Part shown: one piece after another, positions 10,460 to 16,923 of the stretch
How positions within the stretch are numbered: the first letter of the stretch is position 1
Layout of the letters: each line of letters begins with the position of its first letter
Virus record (IMG/VR): IMGVR_UViG_3300025300_000061
Span: 1-30,274 of that record
Reading direction: 5' to 3' (one strand)
DNA length: 30,274 nucleotides
DNA from: a virus
Translations under genes and position numbers: made by a program
Notes under the pieces: model-generated
What the model was told of the DNA's origin: nothing
The model's database searches: none
What the model saw: the letters and a program-made list of their open reading frames with translations, nothing else

Positions 10460-12001
10460 CTAAGTTCTCCAATATGCAACCCTTTGTTGCTTTCTTGGTT
10501 CATCTTCCCATTGAGGATCTTCTGGATGTGTTACATGCCATGATTCTCTTAGGAAATGTATAGCCATTGTCAAGGCATCTACCTGATCATCATGGGCTGC
10601 ATTGGGAAACTGTATCAGTTCTTCTATAAGATCAGCAGCCCACTTCTTATGTACAGGTATCCAAACCTTTCCTGCTTCCATCATGGGAGAAGCTGCATAT
10701 ACCCTGCTGACTTTATCCCTATCTGGAAGATATTCTCTTATAGGTAGGCCACTTCTTCTCATATCCTGTATGAGTGACTGACCACTTGCCTTCTTCTCTA
10801 TAATACATACATCTGGTTTAAACTGATCGTACAACATTTGTGATATTCTACGTAGTTCTGGATATTCAAAGCGACCTTTAAGATTACCAAGAAGAATCAG
10901 ATTGGATACATAAGATTCTCGTCCGTCTTCCTCCTCATCAAACATGGAGAATATACCCCATGTCTGTATTACACTAAAGTCTGCCGTAGTTCGAGTGGAA
11001 AAGGCCGTATCATATGTTTGCAGGATAAAGTCACATGTTGGTGGATCTTCGTATTCCCACTCTCGTATCCATTTCTTCTTTATCAGTCCACCTTCTTCTG
11101 GAGTTGGATCTTGCATGTACAATGCATTCCAGTATCGTGCTCCATTCGAGGCTTTAATCTCATTCTCATCAATTTGTAATACTTCTTTGGGCTTCCATTC
11201 GGGAAAATAGGAAGAACCCACTGGTAGCTCTAAAAGTTCTGCCGCTTCATCATCTAACCATGCAGGTATTCGTACAACTTCCCAAGGTAGAGTCTCATAT
11301 TCACTCATTTCCTCTTGTTGTTTTAGCAACCAGCCACATAAATCATCGAAATGATACCTTGTATTAATGATGAGTATGGAACCATTGGGCATTATACGTG
11401 TACGTAGGCCAGCAGGATACCATTCTTTGACATATCTACGGCCAGCTTCGGAATATGAGTCCTCTTCGGACATCACATCGTCCAATATGGCTATATTAGC
11501 CCCTCGTCCTGCAATCTGACTACGGACCCCGGCTGCGTAATAGGTGCCATTCTGGTTTGTTTTCCACTTTCCTGCTGCTCTAACGTCCGTCCGTAACGAA
11601 ACTCCTTTAAATATCTCCTGAAACTGTTCAGAGTTAACAACGTCACGAACAGAACGGCCAAAATCACTAGAAAGTTGATCACTGTGAGAAACAGTAAGAA
11701 TTTCATGTTCTGGATTTCTCCCTATATACCATGCTGGAAACAATTTGGAACAGATAACAGACTTGGAACTCCGTGGTGGTAGGAATACCATCAGCCTTTT
11801 TATCTCTCCAGCCTCTAATTGTCTTAATTTATTGGAAATTACCTCTATATGCTTACCCATCTTCCAATCGGAGACAAGCATCGGGGCCATTAAACGGACA
11901 AATGACAGGAAATCATCTTTAGTTTCCTGTAGTACACTTAGATTTAATAGACCTTGAAGGTTAACATACGGAGATACAATAGAATCTTCTTGTAAATTCA
12001 T
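10460..12001 (-). CDS. terL: Terminase large subunit
   Basis: The packaging motor ATPase and nuclease, 513 aa, typical length. The Walker A-type motif LPPRSSKS spans residues 74-81, a variant of the usual LPPRHGKS. The Walker B region NIAILDDV has acidic residues at 174-175. The RNase H-like nuclease shows QTYDTAFS, VCIIEKKASGQ and AHDDQVDAL (residues 469-477) with its conserved aspartates. It heads the leftward operon. The ATG at 12001 has only a weak GAG upstream in a very AT-rich leader. No small subunit was recognised in the window. Confidence 0.93.
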   Translation of the reverse strand: MNLQEDSIVSPYVNLQGLLNLSVLQETKDDFLSFVRLMAPMLVSDWKMGKHIEVISNKLRQLEAGEIKRLMVFLPPRSSKSVICSKLFPAWYIGRNPEHEILTVSHSDQLSSDFGRSVRDVVNSEQFQEIFKGVSLRTDVRAAGKWKTNQNGTYYAAGVRSQIAGRGANIAILDDVMSEEDSYSEAGRRYVKEWYPAGLRTRIMPNGSILIINTRYHFDDLCGWLLKQQEEMSEYETLPWEVVRIPAWLDDEAAELLELPVGSSYFPEWKPKEVLQIDENEIKASNGARYWNALYMQDPTPEEGGLIKKKWIREWEYEDPPTCDFILQTYDTAFSTRTTADFSVIQTWGIFSMFDEEEDGRESYVSNLILLGNLKGRFEYPELRRISQMLYDQFKPDVCIIEKKASGQSLIQDMRRSGLPIREYLPDRDKVSRVYAASPMMEAGKVWIPVHKKWAADLIEELIQFPNAAHDDQVDALTMAIHFLRESWHVTHPEDPQWEDEPRKQQRVAYWRT

Positions 12002-12120
12002 TATTAGCTCTAAAAAAATAATAAAAAATAAAAAATATTCAAATAAGTTTTAATAATTTTAGTTGATCTACTTATTTTATATATAATTATACAACAAAAG
12101 TGGTGAACATCCAAATGATT
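12002..12120. other. AT-rich divergent leader, no gene
   Basis: This stretch separates the leftward terminase gene from everything transcribed rightward. It is almost pure A/T from 12010 to 12060 and contains TATAAT at 12082-12087 on the plus strand without a convincing -35 partner. Start signals for both directions are expected here, but I cannot point to a consensus promoter on either strand. Confidence 0.4.
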
Positions 12121-12190
12121 TTTACTATGACCCTGTAATTTTAGGTAAATATGTGGCACCCCATTCTATATATATGATCAAGCCAGCCAT

Positions 12191-12208
12191 TTTTCCCTCC
12201 CCCTCCCC
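12191..12208 (+). other. Pyrimidine tract
   Basis: Eighteen consecutive pyrimidines, mostly C, flanked on both sides by CCATTTTT-like words. The complementary strand is a G-rich run with three G-blocks. It stands out in an AT-rich genome and lies in the gene-free divergence region. Its function is not evident. Confidence 0.5.
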
Positions 12209-12260
12209 ATTTTTGGCTGTTTTGCTTGCTTTTTGGGGCAAAATGATACCTTGGTGATAT

Positions 12261-12316
12261 CCCTAGGTTTTCTCATGGTTTATATGTCTGTTTAGTGGGT
12301 TTTCCCTAGGTTTTCT
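12261..12316 (+). repeat. Short direct repeat CCCTAGGTTTTCT
   Basis: The 13-mer CCCTAGGTTTTCT occurs at 12261-12273 and again at 12304-12316, 43 bases apart, in the gene-free region ahead of the larger hairpin repeats. It contains the palindrome CCTAGG. A protein-binding site is possible. Confidence 0.6.
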
Positions 12317-12358
12317 GCCGTTTTTGGACCTTGGTTGACGATGAAGGTCGATGAAGAT

Positions 12359-12421
12359 TTAGAAACCCTAGACTCCTCCTTCGGAGTCGTAGGGTTTCTT
12401 AGGCTGCAAATTCCACAGCAA
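12359..12421 (+). repeat. 63-bp hairpin repeat, copy 1
   Basis: The first of two tandem copies. Its first 44 bases are identical in both. AGAAACCCTAGACTCC (12361-12376) pairs with 12383-12399 around the loop TCCTTC, with a single bulged G. The unit ends in AATTCCACAGCAA. The structure resembles a bidirectional terminator or a stable non-coding RNA stem. It lies between divergent transcription units and before the first early gene. Confidence 0.8.
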
Positions 12422-12469
12422 ATTTTCATTTCATTTTTCACATCGTTGCAAGGTGAAATCGAAAATCAA

Positions 12470-12532
12470 TTAGAAACCCTAGACTCCTCCTTCGGAGTCG
12501 TAGGGTTTCTTAGCCTACGAATTCCACAGCAA
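12470..12532 (+). repeat. 63-bp hairpin repeat, copy 2
   Basis: The second copy starts 111 bases after the first. It differs at only three positions, all outside the stem, so the hairpin is perfectly kept. In both copies a TTG lies 24 bases before the shared block and TCGA lies 10-13 bases before it, so weak conservation extends upstream. Confidence 0.8.
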
Positions 12533-12551
12533 CCAATTCCGGTTGTTGAAC

Positions 12552-12608
12552 CTAGCTACCAGCAATGGTAGTTAGCCGTTGTTGGTGGCACTTGATCGAA
12601 AGGATCAA
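12552..12608 (+). promoter_or_regulatory. Structured leader of first early gene
   Basis: Two hairpins precede the first rightward gene. CTAGCTACC (12552-12560) pairs with GGTAGTTAG (12567-12575) with one G-U. TTGATC (12592-12597) pairs with GATCAA (12603-12608) around the loop GAAAG. The second places the ribosome-binding AAAGG partly in the loop, so folding could control translation of the gene at 12612. Confidence 0.5.
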
Positions 12609-12611
12609 AAA

Positions 12612-12947
12612 ATGACCACAAAACAACAAGTTACCGACTTAGCCAAGATCGTTCTTGGACTAGCCAATCAGGTCGAAGAACTCACCAATCAGGTGAAAAA
12701 CGACCAACCAACCAAGGCTAAAAAGTCTCGGAAAACGGCGGCTAGAGCCACGAAAGCACCTGCAAAAAAGCAGGTAACTCGTTGGTTTAAGCAAGGTAAA
12801 AATGGCAAGTGGACCGAAACCAAGGATGGATCTAGGGTTCAATTCCAAAAAGACAAGGAAGCCCTAGTCCCTCTGGCCATGTTCAACTCCAAAACTGGAG
12901 AATTGAAAGCATGGAACTCTGACGGTGACGTTTCATTGCCAGTATAG
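12612..12947 (+). CDS. Basic early protein with histone-like linker (111 aa)
   Basis: Three parts are visible. An N-terminal amphipathic coiled coil (about residues 4-28) comes first. A Lys/Ala-rich linker follows (about 33-55, with KKSRKTAARATKAPAKK), resembling bacterial H1-like tails. A C-terminal domain starts at VTRWFKQGKNGKW. It is the first gene of the rightward unit, so a DNA-binding early takeover protein is a reasonable inference. The ATG at 12612 has AAAGGA eight bases upstream; an in-frame start at 12579 lacks this. Base composition is clearly GC-richer than the rest of the window. No known family recognised. Confidence 0.75.
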   Translation: MTTKQQVTDLAKIVLGLANQVEELTNQVKNDQPTKAKKSRKTAARATKAPAKKQVTRWFKQGKNGKWTETKDGSRVQFQKDKEALVPLAMFNSKTGELKAWNSDGDVSLPV

Positions 12948-12963
12948 CTAGGTTAAGCCATGA

Positions 12964-13081
12964 GGGGGGCTATCAAGCCCCCCGATTGGTTTCTATAAGC
13001 CCTATCCGTAGGGTTTATAAAAACCAATTGAGGTTTATCGAATAGGTCTATCATGGCCTATAATGGCCCTATCATGGGCTA
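12964..13081 (+). promoter_or_regulatory. Hairpin leader 1
   Basis: Four consecutive stems lie between two genes. GGGGGGC/GCCCCCC has loop TATCAA (12964-12983). A 20-bp stem of 12985-13004 with 13009-13028 has loop TCCG. ATAGGTC/GGCCTAT has loop TATCAT (13042-13061). TGGCCC/GGGCTA has loop TATCAT (13064-13081). No T-tract follows the first stem, so it is not a standard terminator. The last stem ends 10 bases before the ribosome site of the next gene. Related leaders occur at 13393 and 14252. Confidence 0.75.
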
Positions 13082-13103
13082 ACAATCAGCAAGGGAGTTT
13101 ATT

Positions 13104-13301
13104 GTGACTATCAAGCTGAAAAACTGTGGTAATGCCTTCTTTCTATCAGGCAAGCAAGGCAACGCCGACAAAGACTGCAAGCCTGTAGGCCGTAGACAAA
13201 AACGGCAAGCAAGCAAGCTCTTAAGGCAAATAAGCAGCGAGGAAGCCATTAAGATATTAAATGATGAGACTTACTGGCAGCAGGAAGGAATGAACCAATG
13301 A
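13104..13301 (+). CDS. Small basic early protein (65 aa)
   Basis: The start is a GTG at 13104 with AAGGGAG six bases upstream. The product is short and basic, with GRRQKRQASKLLRQ in the middle, a likely helix that could bind nucleic acid, and an acidic C-terminus. It overlaps the next tiny gene by ATGA. I do not recognise it. It belongs to the cluster of early small genes divided by hairpin leaders. Confidence 0.6.
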   Translation: MTIKLKNCGNAFFLSGKQGNADKDCKPVGRRQKRQASKLLRQISSEEAIKILNDETYWQQEGMNQ

Positions 13302-13378
13302 CAGGCATCATATGGTTAGATGTAGCTATAGGACTAGGTTGTGCTATAGTCATGGTTGCTTTATTTTATACAGATTAA
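13298..13378 (+). CDS. Tiny single-pass membrane protein (26 aa)
   Basis: The ATG overlaps the preceding stop (ATGA) and has AGGAAGGA about nine bases upstream. The 26 residues are nearly all hydrophobic (IIWLDVAIGLGCAIVMVALF) and end in YTD, so a single membrane helix is likely. Spacing and overlap support a real gene despite its size. A membrane-acting early or lysis-related peptide is possible; nothing shows which. Confidence 0.5.
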   Translation: MTGIIWLDVAIGLGCAIVMVALFYTD

Positions 13379-13392
13379 TTCCTCTTTAGCGT

Positions 13393-13491
13393 AGGGGCTA
13401 GGCAAGTTAGTCTAGCCTCTTTCTAAGTAGGAATTAGCACACAACGTGCTGATAATGACCTTATCATAGGTCACTACGGGCTATCATGCCC
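13393..13491 (+). promoter_or_regulatory. Hairpin leader 2
   Basis: AGGGGCTAG (13393-13401) pairs with CTAGCCTCT (13412-13420) and is followed by TT, perhaps a weak terminator. AGCAC/GTGCT with loop ACAAC follows (13436-13450). Then come TGACCT/AGGTCA with loop TATCAT (13456-13473) and GGGC/GCCC with loop TATCAT (13478-13491). The last stem ends three bases before AAAGGAG of the next gene. Confidence 0.72.
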
Positions 13492-13507
13492 AGAAAGGAG
13501 CATCCTT

Positions 13508-13684
13508 GTGGCATCAACCATAAAGGAAGCAATGGCTAATGCTGAACAGCATAAGCAAAATACCGAAGAAGTGCTGGACCTTATAGAAGAAGGTGCAGCT
13601 AAAATATCCCTAGGCAAGGGAGACTATGTTGAAGTCTCCATAAGCCCTAGCGGTAGAGTTAAATTTAACATAGTAGATAAATGA
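13508..13684 (+). CDS. Small hypothetical protein (58 aa)
   Basis: A GTG start at 13508 is preceded by AAAGGAG, and the stop overlaps the next ATG (ATGA). The product is a compact helix-then-strand protein: an Ala/Glu-rich helix to about residue 34, then ISLGKGDYVEVSISPSGRVK, which looks like two beta strands. No family recognised. Both flanking signals make it credible as a gene. Confidence 0.65.
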   Translation: MASTIKEAMANAEQHKQNTEEVLDLIEEGAAKISLGKGDYVEVSISPSGRVKFNIVDK

Positions 13685-13986
13685 AAACTCTCTTTGGTAC
13701 ACCAGTAAATCCTTTGGTATTAGAGGTATCAAAGGACCACCCATTGCACGTTAGCAATCTCAAGGAATGGTACGATCATGCTAAAGAACAGGCAAGGCAG
13801 TGTCGTTCCATGATAAGACTTGCTAAGAAGCAAGGGGATAAACGTGCTACGGATAAGCACATAACCAACCTATATAGCCATAAAGGATATATGAAAAGTA
13901 TCCGTCAGTATGTCAAGTATGGCACATGGGTCGATAACTTTTGGGGTAAAGACCAAGAGTTTCGAGTAACTTGGAGGACGTTATGA
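13681..13986 (+). CDS. Hypothetical basic protein (101 aa)
   Basis: This gene overlaps its neighbours on both sides by ATGA. It has no clear ribosome site of its own, so coupled translation is likely. The protein is helical and basic, with KEWYDHAKEQARQCRSMIRLAKKQ in the middle and aromatic-rich VKYGTWVDNFWGKDQEF near the end. No known motif. Confidence 0.68.
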   Translation: MKTLFGTPVNPLVLEVSKDHPLHVSNLKEWYDHAKEQARQCRSMIRLAKKQGDKRATDKHITNLYSHKGYMKSIRQYVKYGTWVDNFWGKDQEFRVTWRTL

Positions 13987-14231
13987 AGTGGATGAGAGTT
14001 AATTTCTCCCGTTGGTATAAGTATCCTGAAGGAGATTCTCACTTAGAAAACTCCAAATATTATACAGTAGCTTGTCATAATAGATCTCAAGCTATCACCA
14101 AGGCTCATGCTTTGGCAGTTAAGGATAACTTTGGATCTAAAACTTTCAAGTATTTGCTTACACACATACTGAATATGCAATCAAGCTACGATGTTCATGT
14201 TACAGTGGAAGGAGATGTAATGGTAAACTAA
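13983..14231 (+). CDS. Hypothetical protein (82 aa)
   Basis: The ATG at 13983 is chosen because GGAGG lies six bases upstream and it forms an ATGA overlap; an in-frame TTG at 13971 would place the ribosome site inside the gene. The product has an aromatic N-terminus (WMRVNFSRWYKYPEGD) and a C-terminal beta-like YDVHVTVEGDVMV. Family not recognised. Confidence 0.68.
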   Translation: MKWMRVNFSRWYKYPEGDSHLENSKYYTVACHNRSQAITKAHALAVKDNFGSKTFKYLLTHILNMQSSYDVHVTVEGDVMVN

Positions 14232-14251
14232 TATCTCTTGATAGGCCAGTT

Positions 14252-14358
14252 GGGGGCTAACAACCCCCGATTGGTTTATATAAGCCTAATTGGGTTTATA
14301 TAAACCAATTATGGTTTACAGAATAGGTCTTACTATAGACCTATGGGTGGCACACCCA
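14252..14358 (+). promoter_or_regulatory. Hairpin leader 3
   Basis: GGGGG/CCCCC (14252-14268) is followed one base later by an 18-bp stem of 14270-14287 with 14292-14309. Next come ATAGGTCT/AGACCTAT with loop TACTAT (14323-14344) and TGGGTG/CACCCA with loop GCA (14344-14358). The order and much of the sequence match leader 1, with changes that keep base pairing. It ends 28 bases before the next ATG. Confidence 0.75.
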
Positions 14359-14386
14359 CTGTGCTAATGAGTGAAAGGAAATAGCT

Positions 14387-14812
14387 ATGACTATTTACAC
14401 ACCTCATTTTGATGAAACGCCAGTAGTATATAAGCCTATAATCAGGAACATTCGGGCTTTCTGGTGCAAATGGGTCAAATCTGTACCCGGATTTAACTAT
14501 GAAGAAGGGTGGGCAGAAGGGGAGAGTATCCTAGCTCCTGATCGTGCCTTGTATAGTAATTGTGATATCTTAGAGTTAGAAAGATATCGCAGAGGAGAGG
14601 GCTATGAAATAGATCACAAGGGCTATTATGATGGTCATGAGATTATGTTCATAGTTACTTTTCAAATTGGTAGTAGAATGGAGAAAAGGTTCTATAAGCC
14701 TGAACATTTCTTTCAAATACTACATGATGCAAACTTTGAATCTTACGATGAGGAGTTTACATCAAGGGCATTCCCGCCGCAACCTGAGTATAAAGTGGAG
14801 GAATCGAAATGA
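14387..14812 (+). CDS. Hypothetical protein (141 aa)
   Basis: GAAAGGAA lies upstream of the ATG, after hairpin leader 3. The soluble protein is rich in aromatic and acidic residues, with segments such as RAFWCKWVKSVPGFNYEEGW and a central beta-like EIMFIVTFQIGSR. No membrane segment or metal site is visible. It heads a run of four tightly overlapping genes. I do not recognise it. Confidence 0.72.
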   Translation: MTIYTPHFDETPVVYKPIIRNIRAFWCKWVKSVPGFNYEEGWAEGESILAPDRALYSNCDILELERYRRGEGYEIDHKGYYDGHEIMFIVTFQIGSRMEKRFYKPEHFFQILHDANFESYDEEFTSRAFPPQPEYKVEESK

Positions 14813-15201
14813 AGCTCGATGACTTTGACGATTGGGGCGACAGAGTAAACTACCTTGGTAGTAGTCGTCGTCGCATTACTCTAACTATCGATGTAAATAT
14901 GGAATCCTTTACGGGATGGGGAACTGATGTTGACGATCATGTTCAATCCTATGTTCGTATGATCCAAGAGAAGGGAGATTGGTTGAAGCCATTAGTGATA
15001 TCAGCACAATCTTCCATGTCTCCTGTTCAATATGAATATGTGGAAGGAACGGGTCATGGTCTGGTTCCTATAGATGAAACTGAATGGTGGAAATCTATGA
15101 ATGACGAAGAAGAAAAGTTCGTTAAGACGAACATATTTACAGTAAAAGAACATCAACTGTCTGAACCATCGTGGAAAGAGGAGAAAAATAATGACCTATG
15201 A
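14809..15201 (+). CDS. Hypothetical acidic protein (130 aa)
   Basis: ATGA overlap with the previous stop and AGTGGAGG upstream support the start. The N-terminus is strongly acidic (LDDFDDWGDRVNYLG), followed by beta-like RRITLTIDVNMESFTGWG. The acidic surface would suit a DNA mimic or protein inhibitor, but this is speculation from composition alone. Family not recognised. Confidence 0.7.
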   Translation: MKLDDFDDWGDRVNYLGSSRRRITLTIDVNMESFTGWGTDVDDHVQSYVRMIQEKGDWLKPLVISAQSSMSPVQYEYVEGTGHGLVPIDETEWWKSMNDEEEKFVKTNIFTVKEHQLSEPSWKEEKNNDL

Positions 15202-15379
15202 ATGTCCAGAAATGGGTTGTGATTGTCATGTGGAAGGGCCAAGAGTGCTTAAATCAGCAGCCGGATTTTATATCGGGTACTTCTGTAATGAGTGTGGCCC
15301 TTGCACCAGAGATTCTTCCTACTTTTCCAATGAGGAAGAAGCTAGTCGTGTTCTTCATCTAAATAGGGAGTATCTATAA
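15191..15379 (+). CDS. Cysteine-rich zinc-ribbon-like protein (62 aa)
   Basis: Six cysteines fall in two clusters: YECPEMGCDCH at residues 3-12 and YFCNECGPCT near residues 30-38. This spacing fits a small zinc-binding fold. AAAGAGGAG precedes the ATG, and the gene overlaps both neighbours. Small zinc proteins in early phage regions often modify host enzymes, but the target here is unknown. Confidence 0.7.
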   Translation: MTYECPEMGCDCHVEGPRVLKSAAGFYIGYFCNECGPCTRDSSYFSNEEEASRVLHLNREYL

Positions 15380-15618
15380 TGGCTTATGTTGTTGAGTTTA
15401 CCCAACGTGAGTATGATAACAAGTGGATTCGTTGGGAGTTAATGGATTCCAAGAAGAAAAATGGTATTGGTGATACTTCTACTTGGAATCGATTCAAGTG
15501 GGTAATTACAGGTGTTTGGCACCATGAGCCAAAAGATCTGATGAAAAGATTATCCACTAAGCTGCACTCAATACAGGAGAATAAGGATGGTCGTCGCACT
15601 CTCACTTATCATCTGTAG
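15379..15618 (+). CDS. Hypothetical protein (79 aa)
   Basis: The ATG shares one base with the preceding stop (TAATG) and has AGGGAG upstream. The product starts with strand-like YVVEFTQREYDNKWIRWELMD and ends with a helical segment and RRTLTYHL. Its 3' end contains the start of a tiny membrane ORF in another frame. No family recognised. Confidence 0.65.
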   Translation: MAYVVEFTQREYDNKWIRWELMDSKKKNGIGDTSTWNRFKWVITGVWHHEPKDLMKRLSTKLHSIQENKDGRRTLTYHL

Positions 15619-15685
15619 CGTAGTATGTTTGCCGTTTATCATAGCGGTAGGTATGTTTATCCATCATCAACTAACAGAAAGGTAA
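15587..15685 (+). CDS. Tiny membrane protein (32 aa)
   Basis: The ATG lies inside the end of the preceding gene in a different frame, with CAGGAGA eight bases upstream. It fills the gap to the next gene exactly, stopping five bases before its ATG. The product is one long hydrophobic segment (LSLIICSVVCLPFIIAVGMF) with a polar IHHQLTER tail, a typical single-pass peptide. It explains the space better than an upstream extension of the next gene. Confidence 0.5.
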   Translation: MVVALSLIICSVVCLPFIIAVGMFIHHQLTER

Positions 15686-15690
15686 TAAAT

Positions 15691-15879
15691 ATGAAACTAT
15701 TTGGATATAAATTTCACGGTCGTATTCGTAAACCTAATGCACATCAAGTGCGAAAGGGAGTAAGGGATAATAACCCTAGCTTCTTCTACAAAGGAACCAC
15801 CATTAATGCGGAGGGAGTAGTAGGTAAACGGTACGATATAGGAAGATTATATCTTCACGTTGCCAATTACGACAGGTAA
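15691..15879 (+). CDS. Small basic hypothetical protein (62 aa)
   Basis: The ATG at 15691 follows AGAAAGG and is preferred over an in-frame ATG at 15625, which has no ribosome site and would overlap the tiny membrane ORF. The protein is basic with FHGRIRKPNAHQVRKGVRD near the start and a strand-rich end. Family unknown. A strong terminator follows its stop. Confidence 0.62.
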   Translation: MKLFGYKFHGRIRKPNAHQVRKGVRDNNPSFFYKGTTINAEGVVGKRYDIGRLYLHVANYDR

Positions 15880-15888
15880 TGTTATAAT
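15860..15888 (+). promoter_or_regulatory. Sigma70-type promoter ahead of the terminator
   Basis: TTGCCA (15860-15865) and a perfect TATAAT (15883-15888) are spaced by exactly 17 bases. Transcription would begin near 15895, immediately before the hairpin at 15898. The promoter overlaps the end of the preceding gene. It could drive the ParB-like gene with built-in attenuation. Confidence 0.65.
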
Positions 15889-15897
15889 ATAACCTAT

Positions 15898-15935
15898 GGG
15901 ATGGGTGGTATAATCACCATCCATCCCTTTTTATT
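15898..15935 (+). terminator. Intrinsic terminator
   Basis: GGGATGGGTGGT (15898-15909) pairs over 12 bp, with one G-U, with 15916-15927 around a six-base loop. TTTTTATT follows directly. This is the best rho-independent terminator in the window and closes the early small-gene region. Confidence 0.85.
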
Positions 15936-15946
15936 GGAGAAAAATT

Positions 15947-16708
15947 ATGAATACTTACAATGACATACTAAAGGTAACTCCCGCTGATAAAGAGTATTCA
16001 GAACTGGAGTTCTTTAATGGTAATCGAATTATAAATTCTAAGAATCTAGCTACTTTAATTAGAGCTATACACGAATGTAATTTACTACCATTATGCCCAT
16101 TGTTAGTAGTATATCTAGGGGGAAAGTATATAATTGTAGATGGTCAGCATAGATATATGGCAGCTAAAGAATTAAATCTATCATTTTATATGGTAGTTTT
16201 GAAGGAACCCTTTGATCTTTGTATGATAGGTAGATTAAATACCAATCATAAAAACTGGGGGCTTGGTGATTATGCTAGGCATTGGGCTGCTCAACTGGAT
16301 ACATCTGACATATATCAGGAGTATCTTGAGTATTATAATAATAATAATATAACACATGGGATATTAATTGCTATATATAATCGAACACATATCAAACTAC
16401 GAGAAGATGGGGGGAATAAAGTATTCAAAGATGGTAAGTTATTGTGTAATAAAGCTATTCGATTATATATTACAGAACGATTGTATCAATTAAGACAACT
16501 AGAAGGAGCAGCTTTAAATCCTGTACTCACACGATCAACGCTACGAAAGCAGCAGTTTCAAACTGCTATCTTGTTTGCTTTATCTAATGAACACTTCAAC
16601 TATAAAAGATTTCTAAAGAACCTATATAAAAGGAGACATAATTTTAATTTAATTGCAAAACATGTTGACATGGTACATGAAATATATAGAATAGAAAATA
16701 TAAAATAG
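15947..16708 (+). CDS. ParB-like nuclease/CTPase-domain protein
   Basis: The first 100 residues show the ParB/sulfiredoxin-like layout: RIINSKNLATLIRAIHEC, then PLLVVYLGGKYIIVDGQHRYMAAKEL, where the DGQHRYMAAKEL box is the family signature. The remaining 150 residues are helical and basic and may bind DNA, but no clear helix-turn-helix is seen. Phage proteins with this domain act as DNA-binding regulators or nucleases. There is no ParA nearby, so plasmid-type partition is unlikely. TTGGAG precedes the ATG; a terminator and promoter lie just upstream. Confidence 0.75.
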   Translation: MNTYNDILKVTPADKEYSELEFFNGNRIINSKNLATLIRAIHECNLLPLCPLLVVYLGGKYIIVDGQHRYMAAKELNLSFYMVVLKEPFDLCMIGRLNTNHKNWGLGDYARHWAAQLDTSDIYQEYLEYYNNNNITHGILIAIYNRTHIKLREDGGNKVFKDGKLLCNKAIRLYITERLYQLRQLEGAALNPVLTRSTLRKQQFQTAILFALSNEHFNYKRFLKNLYKRRHNFNLIAKHVDMVHEIYRIENIK

Positions 16709-16716
16709 AGGAACCT

Positions 16717-16923
16717 ATGAAAAAACATAGATACATTAAGGTAAAAGATCCTAGTTGTAAAAATGTTAATGATATGTATGCTAATTACTCTGGGTTGTGG
16801 AACTTTTTAAAGTTAAATAAAGTACAACGAAGGGGTGATAGGGGATACATGTTGTGGACAAATGAGCATGTATATAGATTGGAGGTAAGTAATGTCCCAA
16901 CCACCAGCAGAGAGGAAGTATAA
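16717..16923 (+). CDS. Small basic hypothetical protein (68 aa)
   Basis: AGAGGAAC precedes the ATG, nine bases after the ParB-like stop. The protein is basic, with KKHRYIKVKDPS at the start and VQRRGDRGYMLWTNEHVYRLEV in the second half, a likely beta-hairpin. It overlaps the next gene by 32 bases. Family unknown. Confidence 0.6.
   Translation: MKKHRYIKVKDPSCKNVNDMYANYSGLWNFLKLNKVQRRGDRGYMLWTNEHVYRLEVSNVPTTSREEV

Follow-up and report, generated by a model that had tools for sequence, protein, structure and literature searches.

Results of our analysis indicate that the gaps between the first small early genes of the phage represented by IMG/VR record IMGVR_UViG_3300025300_000061 contain copies of a structured RNA element that is supported by compensatory base changes and is outside Rfam; judged by its sequence, its general kind is that of a structured phage leader. 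A repeated RNA cassette without a known class had been proposed for this region in the first-pass annotation, and this proposal is supported; that the cassette is regulatory is what we infer. The record (30,274 bases, the whole of which is referred to below as the window) is that of a virus, and its gene set is that of a tailed phage. A run of small genes starts at 12612 on the + strand and is followed by DUF932, primase-helicase, DNA polymerase, and ribonucleotide reductase genes, and three leaders (1, 2, and 3) occupy gaps between the first of these small genes, all of them being co-directional (+). The closest named phages, as regards the terminase and the polymerase, are pelagiphages (about 42-45% protein identity), which suggests that the source phage, itself uncultured, likely has a marine host. 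No DNA match of the early region (12100-16800) was found in the phage collection.

Leader 1 (12964-13081, MFE -60.5), leader 2 (13379-13491, MFE -50.5), and leader 3 (14252-14358, MFE -50.8) have z-scores of -7.1, -7.5, and -6.8, respectively, versus shuffled sequence, and the size-matched stretches just 3' of them have z-scores of -1.3, -3.8, and +0.4. The limits initially assigned to leaders 1 and 3 are retained, but leader 2 starts at 13379, and not at 13393 as first annotated. All three leaders have a common order of elements, namely, a long hairpin with interruptions (P1), a second one in the middle (P2), a short third one (P3), and a ribosome site, and in leaders 1 and 3 a GC hairpin (P0) is located ahead of P1 (Table 1). 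As had been noticed earlier, the leaders end before a ribosome site: the start codon follows the leader end after 16-29 nt, each time with a plausible SD. The P3 of leader 1 is 22 nt upstream of GTG 13104, the second P3 of leader 2 is 16 nt upstream of GTG 13508, and the last hairpin of leader 3 is 29 nt upstream of ATG 14387. The distance between the P3 end and the start codon is 14-29 nt in six measured leaders and 11 nt in L240_a, a leader of one of the related contigs described below. The product of the gene that follows leader 1 (13104-13301) is 65 aa long and has an arginine-rich stretch, RRQKRQASKLLRQ, which may be an RNA-binding motif; at the corresponding place in L240 this gene is absent.

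Table 1. Positions of the predicted leader hairpins and of the terminase gene in the window.
Feature	Position	Strand	Basis and remarks
Terminase large subunit	10460-12001	-	
Leader 0, tandem hairpins	12359-12408, 12470-12519	+	Near-identical to each other in the window
Leader 0, AAUUCC-loop hairpin	12527-12548	+	Compensatory stem changes in L212
Leader 0, stem	12555-12589	+	
Leader 0, SD-containing hairpin TTGATC-GAAAG-GATCAA	12592-12608	+	Unchanged in L212
Leader 1, P0, GC hairpin GGGGGGC-UAUCAA-GCCCCCC	12964-12983	+	Fold; identical in L212; without proper terminator tail
Leader 1, P1, long interrupted ATTGGTTT hairpin	12984-13029	+	Fold; inverted repeat; copy in leader 3
Leader 1, P2, AUAGGUC-UAUCAU-GGCCUAU	13042-13061	+	Fold; G-U to A-U in L212
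Leader 1, P3, UGGCCC-UAUCAU-GGGCUA	13064-13081	+	Fold; G-U to A-U in L212
Leader 2, P1, long interrupted hairpin (P1a and P1b)	13379-13432	+	Fold; covariation in L221 and L240
Leader 2, P2, TTAGCAC..GTGCTGA hairpin	13433-13453	+	Fold; covariation
Leader 2, P3, UGACCU-UAUCAU-AGGUCA	13456-13473	+	Fold; covariation; double change in L212
Leader 2, second P3, GGGC-UAUCAU-GCCC	13478-13491	+	Fold; identical in L212
Leader 3, P0, GGGGG-CUAACAA-CCCCC	14252-14268	+	Fold
Leader 3, P1, 19-bp ATTGGTTT hairpin	14269-14310	+	Fold; likeness to leader 1
Leader 3, P2, AUAGGUCU-UACUAU-AGACCUAU	14323-14344	+	Fold
Leader 3, last hairpin, GGGUG-GCA-CACCC	14345-14357	+	Fold; GGCACACC hairpin kept in L221 and L240

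Evidence for the element also comes from relatives of the window, fetched as loci in which proteins related to its terminase and its DUF932 protein are encoded. One contig (L212/L087) is 95% identical to the window; its leader 1 differs by two G-U to A-U changes, and in P3 of its leader 2 a U-A pair is replaced by C-G, the loop being unchanged. Two further contigs, L221 and L240, have the order characteristic of leader 2, i.e., a long interrupted hairpin, a TTAG-starting hairpin, a UAUCAU-type hairpin, and a start codon. In both of them one leader follows the first early gene and the second one is located after a small membrane-protein frame and before the counterpart of gene 13681, which are the positions of leaders 1 and 2 in the window. 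The second P3 of leader 2 is absent from the L221 and L240 leaders, and in L240 an insert of about 150 nt (1085-1235), with a tandem repeat around GACCTTTAATAGG, splits the second leader between P1 and P2. The two flanking proteins that were compared in L221 have identities of only 31% (13681) and 27% (14387) to their counterparts in the window, and the protein of the first early gene has a barely detectable relative (E 0.039).

In a MAFFT alignment of five leaders from four contigs, onto which the fold of the window was imposed, 94.6% of the pair cells are paired, a percentage that is somewhat favoured by drawing the structure from one row. Two-sided changes, which are less affected by this choice, occur in 14 pairs (22 cells), and none of 500 shuffles gave as high a result; in slid-partner controls of the same five leaders, 34-51% of cells were paired and at most four pairs had a two-sided change. 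Covariation in homologues had been named at the outset as the test of a new RNA family, and the leaders pass it: besides the two-sided pairs, a covariance model built from leader 2 relatives (R2) finds the left-out second leader of L240 (1030-1131) with 46.5 bits; the calibration of our models is short, and their E-values are rough. The folds are thus kept by matched base changes despite neighbouring proteins that are only about 30% alike, which argues for a real RNA element and suggests that the leader does real work. Structured RNA leaders of uncultured phages are poorly catalogued, and in the case described here the support is that of covariation, beyond fold prediction.

The same model matches leader 1 with 29.3 bits, with the ATAGGTC stem aligned to P2 and the stem after it to P3, which indicates that leaders 1 and 2 are, by sequence and fold, one kind of element. 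Leader 3 joins them by its similarity to leader 1: the two are 82% identical over 85 nt, P0 included, in agreement with the shared order of GC, ATTGGTTT, and ATAGGTC stems recognized in the first-pass annotation. Before the corresponding gene of L221 and L240 only the last leader 3 hairpin (GGCACACC) is present and the block of P0, P1, and P2 is absent, which indicates gain or loss of this block in one piece. The UAUCAU hexaloop, the structural link between leaders 1 and 2, leader 0, and the relatives in other phages were not part of the earlier account.

The family as found here comprises four IMG/VR contigs, near-identical copies aside, two of which are 95% identical to each other, so the number of independent events is small. 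The model of leaders 1 and 3 (R1) gave no convincing match beyond the window and L212 in the loci searched, its weak minus-strand matches in L230 (24.3 bits) and L263 (23.5 bits) being not accepted, and R2 gave no accepted match in 76 further loci or in ten loci fetched by the leader 2 motif. Tandem CTATCATG words occur in at least 80 IMG/VR loci; none of those listed has paired flanking stems at both of the words, and they thus look like chance. The exact leader 1/3 motif was absent from the prokaryote genome collection. No Rfam 15 family matched the window at gathering score; the best match below the threshold, Srn266 (24.2 bits vs. 63), is on the opposite strand and was rejected.

A common feature of the leader hairpins is their loop. 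The UAUCAU hexaloop caps differing stems in P2 and P3 of leader 1 and in both P3 hairpins of leader 2, and UAUCAA caps P0 of leader 1. Five of the six TATCAT words of the region lie inside such hairpins, four in leaders and one in a coding frame. Between 12002 and 16000 there are 17 strong hexaloop hairpins (shuffle mean 2.0), of which five have the UAUCAU loop, as compared to a maximum of one per loop in 300 shuffles. The TATCAT-loop hairpin at 15622-15657 was set aside, as it lies within a small membrane-protein frame and the L221 counterpart does not keep it. In relatives the P3 loop is UAUCAC in one case and UAAUAU in another, and a GCA triloop takes its place at the end of leader 3; any recognition of the loop would therefore have to tolerate change. 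A pseudoknot or kissing interaction of the P3 loop with P2 (UAUCA with UGAUA of the P2 3' arm) was considered and rejected, since the complementarity, present in the window and L212 (GCUGAUAA), is lost in L221_a (GCUAAUAA) and L240_a (GCUAGUAA).

A fourth multi-hairpin leader, leader 0 (12340-12608, +), precedes the first early gene, and the stretch of 12302-12601 has a z-score of -10.8. The likely SD of this gene, AAAGGA, sits inside the last hairpin of leader 0. At the place of its tandem hairpins another hairpin pair is present in L212, L221 (1-400), and L240 (150-470), and these replacement pairs are mostly followed by TTA.

The region is dense in inverted repeats, as would be expected if the hairpins were DNA-level palindromes, such as protein operators or cruciforms, but we give this reading almost no credence. 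A constant centre with varying arms is the opposite of what a DNA operator usually shows; for each of the ten leader sequences the + strand gave a better fold than the - strand (-60.5 vs. -49.5 in leader 1), and all strong UAUCAU hairpins are oriented with the genes. Both the strand difference and the orientation favour RNA over DNA. G-U pairs make up about a tenth of the pairs in the ten sequences. Our promoter scan, which covered the consensus sigma-70 type only, found no such promoter on the + strand at the three leaders. An early promoter joined to a stem-loop is not found at the leaders, and only the stretch of 15860-15888 fits this description, beside a different hairpin. There, in front of a ParB-like gene, a near-consensus sigma-70 promoter (TTGCCA-17-TATAAT) has directly 3' of it a terminator-like hairpin with a T-run (15860-15927). 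The layout of this unit resembles that of the promoter early stem-loops (PeSLs) described below. Intrinsic terminators of the type of a GC stem with a U-run were likewise not found at the leaders, in line with the first-pass annotation: the scan flags only the GC stem of leader 1, the tail of which, GATTGGTTTC, is broken.

The leader element probably controls the translation of early genes, as far as can be judged from its sequence and position. The loop mostly stays, the stem changes, and the hairpin is near the ribosome site, which suggests recognition in trans and translation control. The full reading that we prefer, to which we give about an even chance, is that the leaders are copies of a cis-acting RNA of the early operon, the P3 loop of which is read in trans, tuning translation or stability. 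Each leader can form P1, P2, and P3 on the + strand just upstream of an SD, and the leaders would be transcribed within the early mRNA. The P3 loop would then be recognized, most likely by an RNA-binding protein of the phage or the host, and binding beside the ribosome site may set the translation, and perhaps the decay, of each small early gene, with P1 and P2 possibly insulating, stabilizing, or presenting the P3 site. The second leaders of L221 and L240 have an SD-like GGGGAG into which the 3' arm of P3 extends, and opening or fixing of P3 could thus directly change ribosome access. If each leader does bind one early factor, several small early genes would be tuned jointly by RNA, and related phages with other loops would provide a natural series for matching loops with their readers.

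It is possible, although clearly less probable than the reading of the loop in trans, that the role of the leaders is mainly structural, i.e., that they serve the processing or stability of a polycistronic early mRNA as nuclease entry sites or barriers, without a specific loop-binding partner. The length of the P1 stems (about 20 pairs) and the placing of leaders in several gaps of the small-gene run would suit such a role, and the swapping of the leader 0 hairpins with their structure kept indicates that some hairpins need structure and not sequence; what it leaves unexplained is that the P3 loop is mostly UAUCAU while the stems change. This constancy of the loop on a variable stem is also boxB-type logic, and control of transcription by RNA polymerase pausing, termination, or antitermination (of the boxB/N, put, or multi-hairpin terminator type) would accommodate it. 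Termination at hairpin clusters that lack U-tracts has been reported (PMC8355165), and the put RNA of HK022 affects transcription in cis (PMC9378689). We consider such control unlikely, as the elements are located beside the SD of several genes, and not once per transcript, have no U-tract, and match no Rfam family. Still more improbable is that the leaders are primarily mobile or recombinogenic, PeSL-like cassettes that shuffle early genes, with regulation being secondary. The duplicate-like appearance of leaders 1 and 3 would fit this, as would the lack of the leader 3 P0-P1-P2 block in L221 and L240, the variation of hairpin families among close relatives, and the one promoter and stem-loop unit of the window at 15860-15927; the leaders themselves, however, have neither a consensus promoter nor a terminator tail, and those of the leader 2 type hold their position and fold in four contigs.

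Other families of intergenic hairpins are present among the early genes of many relatives, and the one sampled best has a CTTACG-type core. Palindromic hairpins with this core are present upstream of early-gene ribosome sites in L009/L237, L012/L215, L214, L230, L247, L249, L250, L255, L268, and others. Among 30 distinct elements, which were chosen by core as strong hairpins and aligned by closing pair, so that the high pairing, unlike the arm variety, is partly built in, 14 positions are 92% Watson-Crick (36% with mismatched partners; 0 of 2000 shuffles). The arms covary strongly. RNAalifold returned no pairs for these hairpins, since MAFFT aligned the cores and not the stems. G-U pairs are almost absent (6 of 509), a hint that these hairpins originated at the DNA level or from recent copies. 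Three or more strong hairpins with a common 5-base loop word on differing stems were found in 14 of 96 sequences, a set that includes near-duplicate contigs as well as stretches of one contig that overlap, and, in a subset that was also shuffled, in 12 of 60 real and 0 of 60 shuffled sequences. Other repeated intergenic hairpins with constant loops are those of L017 (upstream of the terminase), L034/L287, L263, and L241 (AACAAGTG; TTTTTCGCANTGAGAAAAA; CTACGTAGTATA; TTTTGG). A large group of uncultured phages might control their early genes by lineage-specific "address" loops (UAUCAU here; UAAGUACUUACGU, AACAAGUG, and others in relatives), repeated on varied stems ahead of many early genes, each with a lineage-specific reader, loops and readers co-diverging, but this generalization is doubtful.

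With regard to known systems, the leaders may be compared to the operator of T4 gene 43 (DNA polymerase), which consists of a conserved-loop hairpin about 40 bases upstream of the start and a ribosome-site sequence, with the hairpin top conserved between T4 and RB69 (PMC3014915). The leaders, too, have a conserved-loop hairpin near the ribosome binding site, and the logic of translation control may, by analogy, be similar. However, in T4 one operator with a UAAC loop serves one gene and has a known binder, while the leaders occur in several copies before several genes, have P1 and P2 in addition, and carry the UAUCAU loop. The PeSLs of T4-type phages are repeated intergenic stem-loops that are tied to duplication and reshuffling (mentioned in PMC4503421). 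The likeness concerns repeated stem-loop units between phage genes; a PeSL is an early promoter joined to a stem-loop, while the leaders, which reach up to an SD, contain neither a promoter match nor a U-tract. Hairpins of early transcripts are also a feature of boxB and put sites, and the boxB of lambdoid nut sites has a constant loop on a variable stem. The target of both sites is RNA polymerase, and they normally occur once per early transcript, whereas several small genes of the phage studied here have their own leader beside the SD, with no match to an Rfam model. The put RNA of HK022 works as RNA alone (PMC9378689). Multi-hairpin intrinsic terminators are clusters of adjacent hairpins that do not need a U-tract (PMC8355165). 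They are located 3' of stop codons, at operon ends, while the P3 of the leaders lies 11-29 nt before the next start, inside a co-directional gene run.
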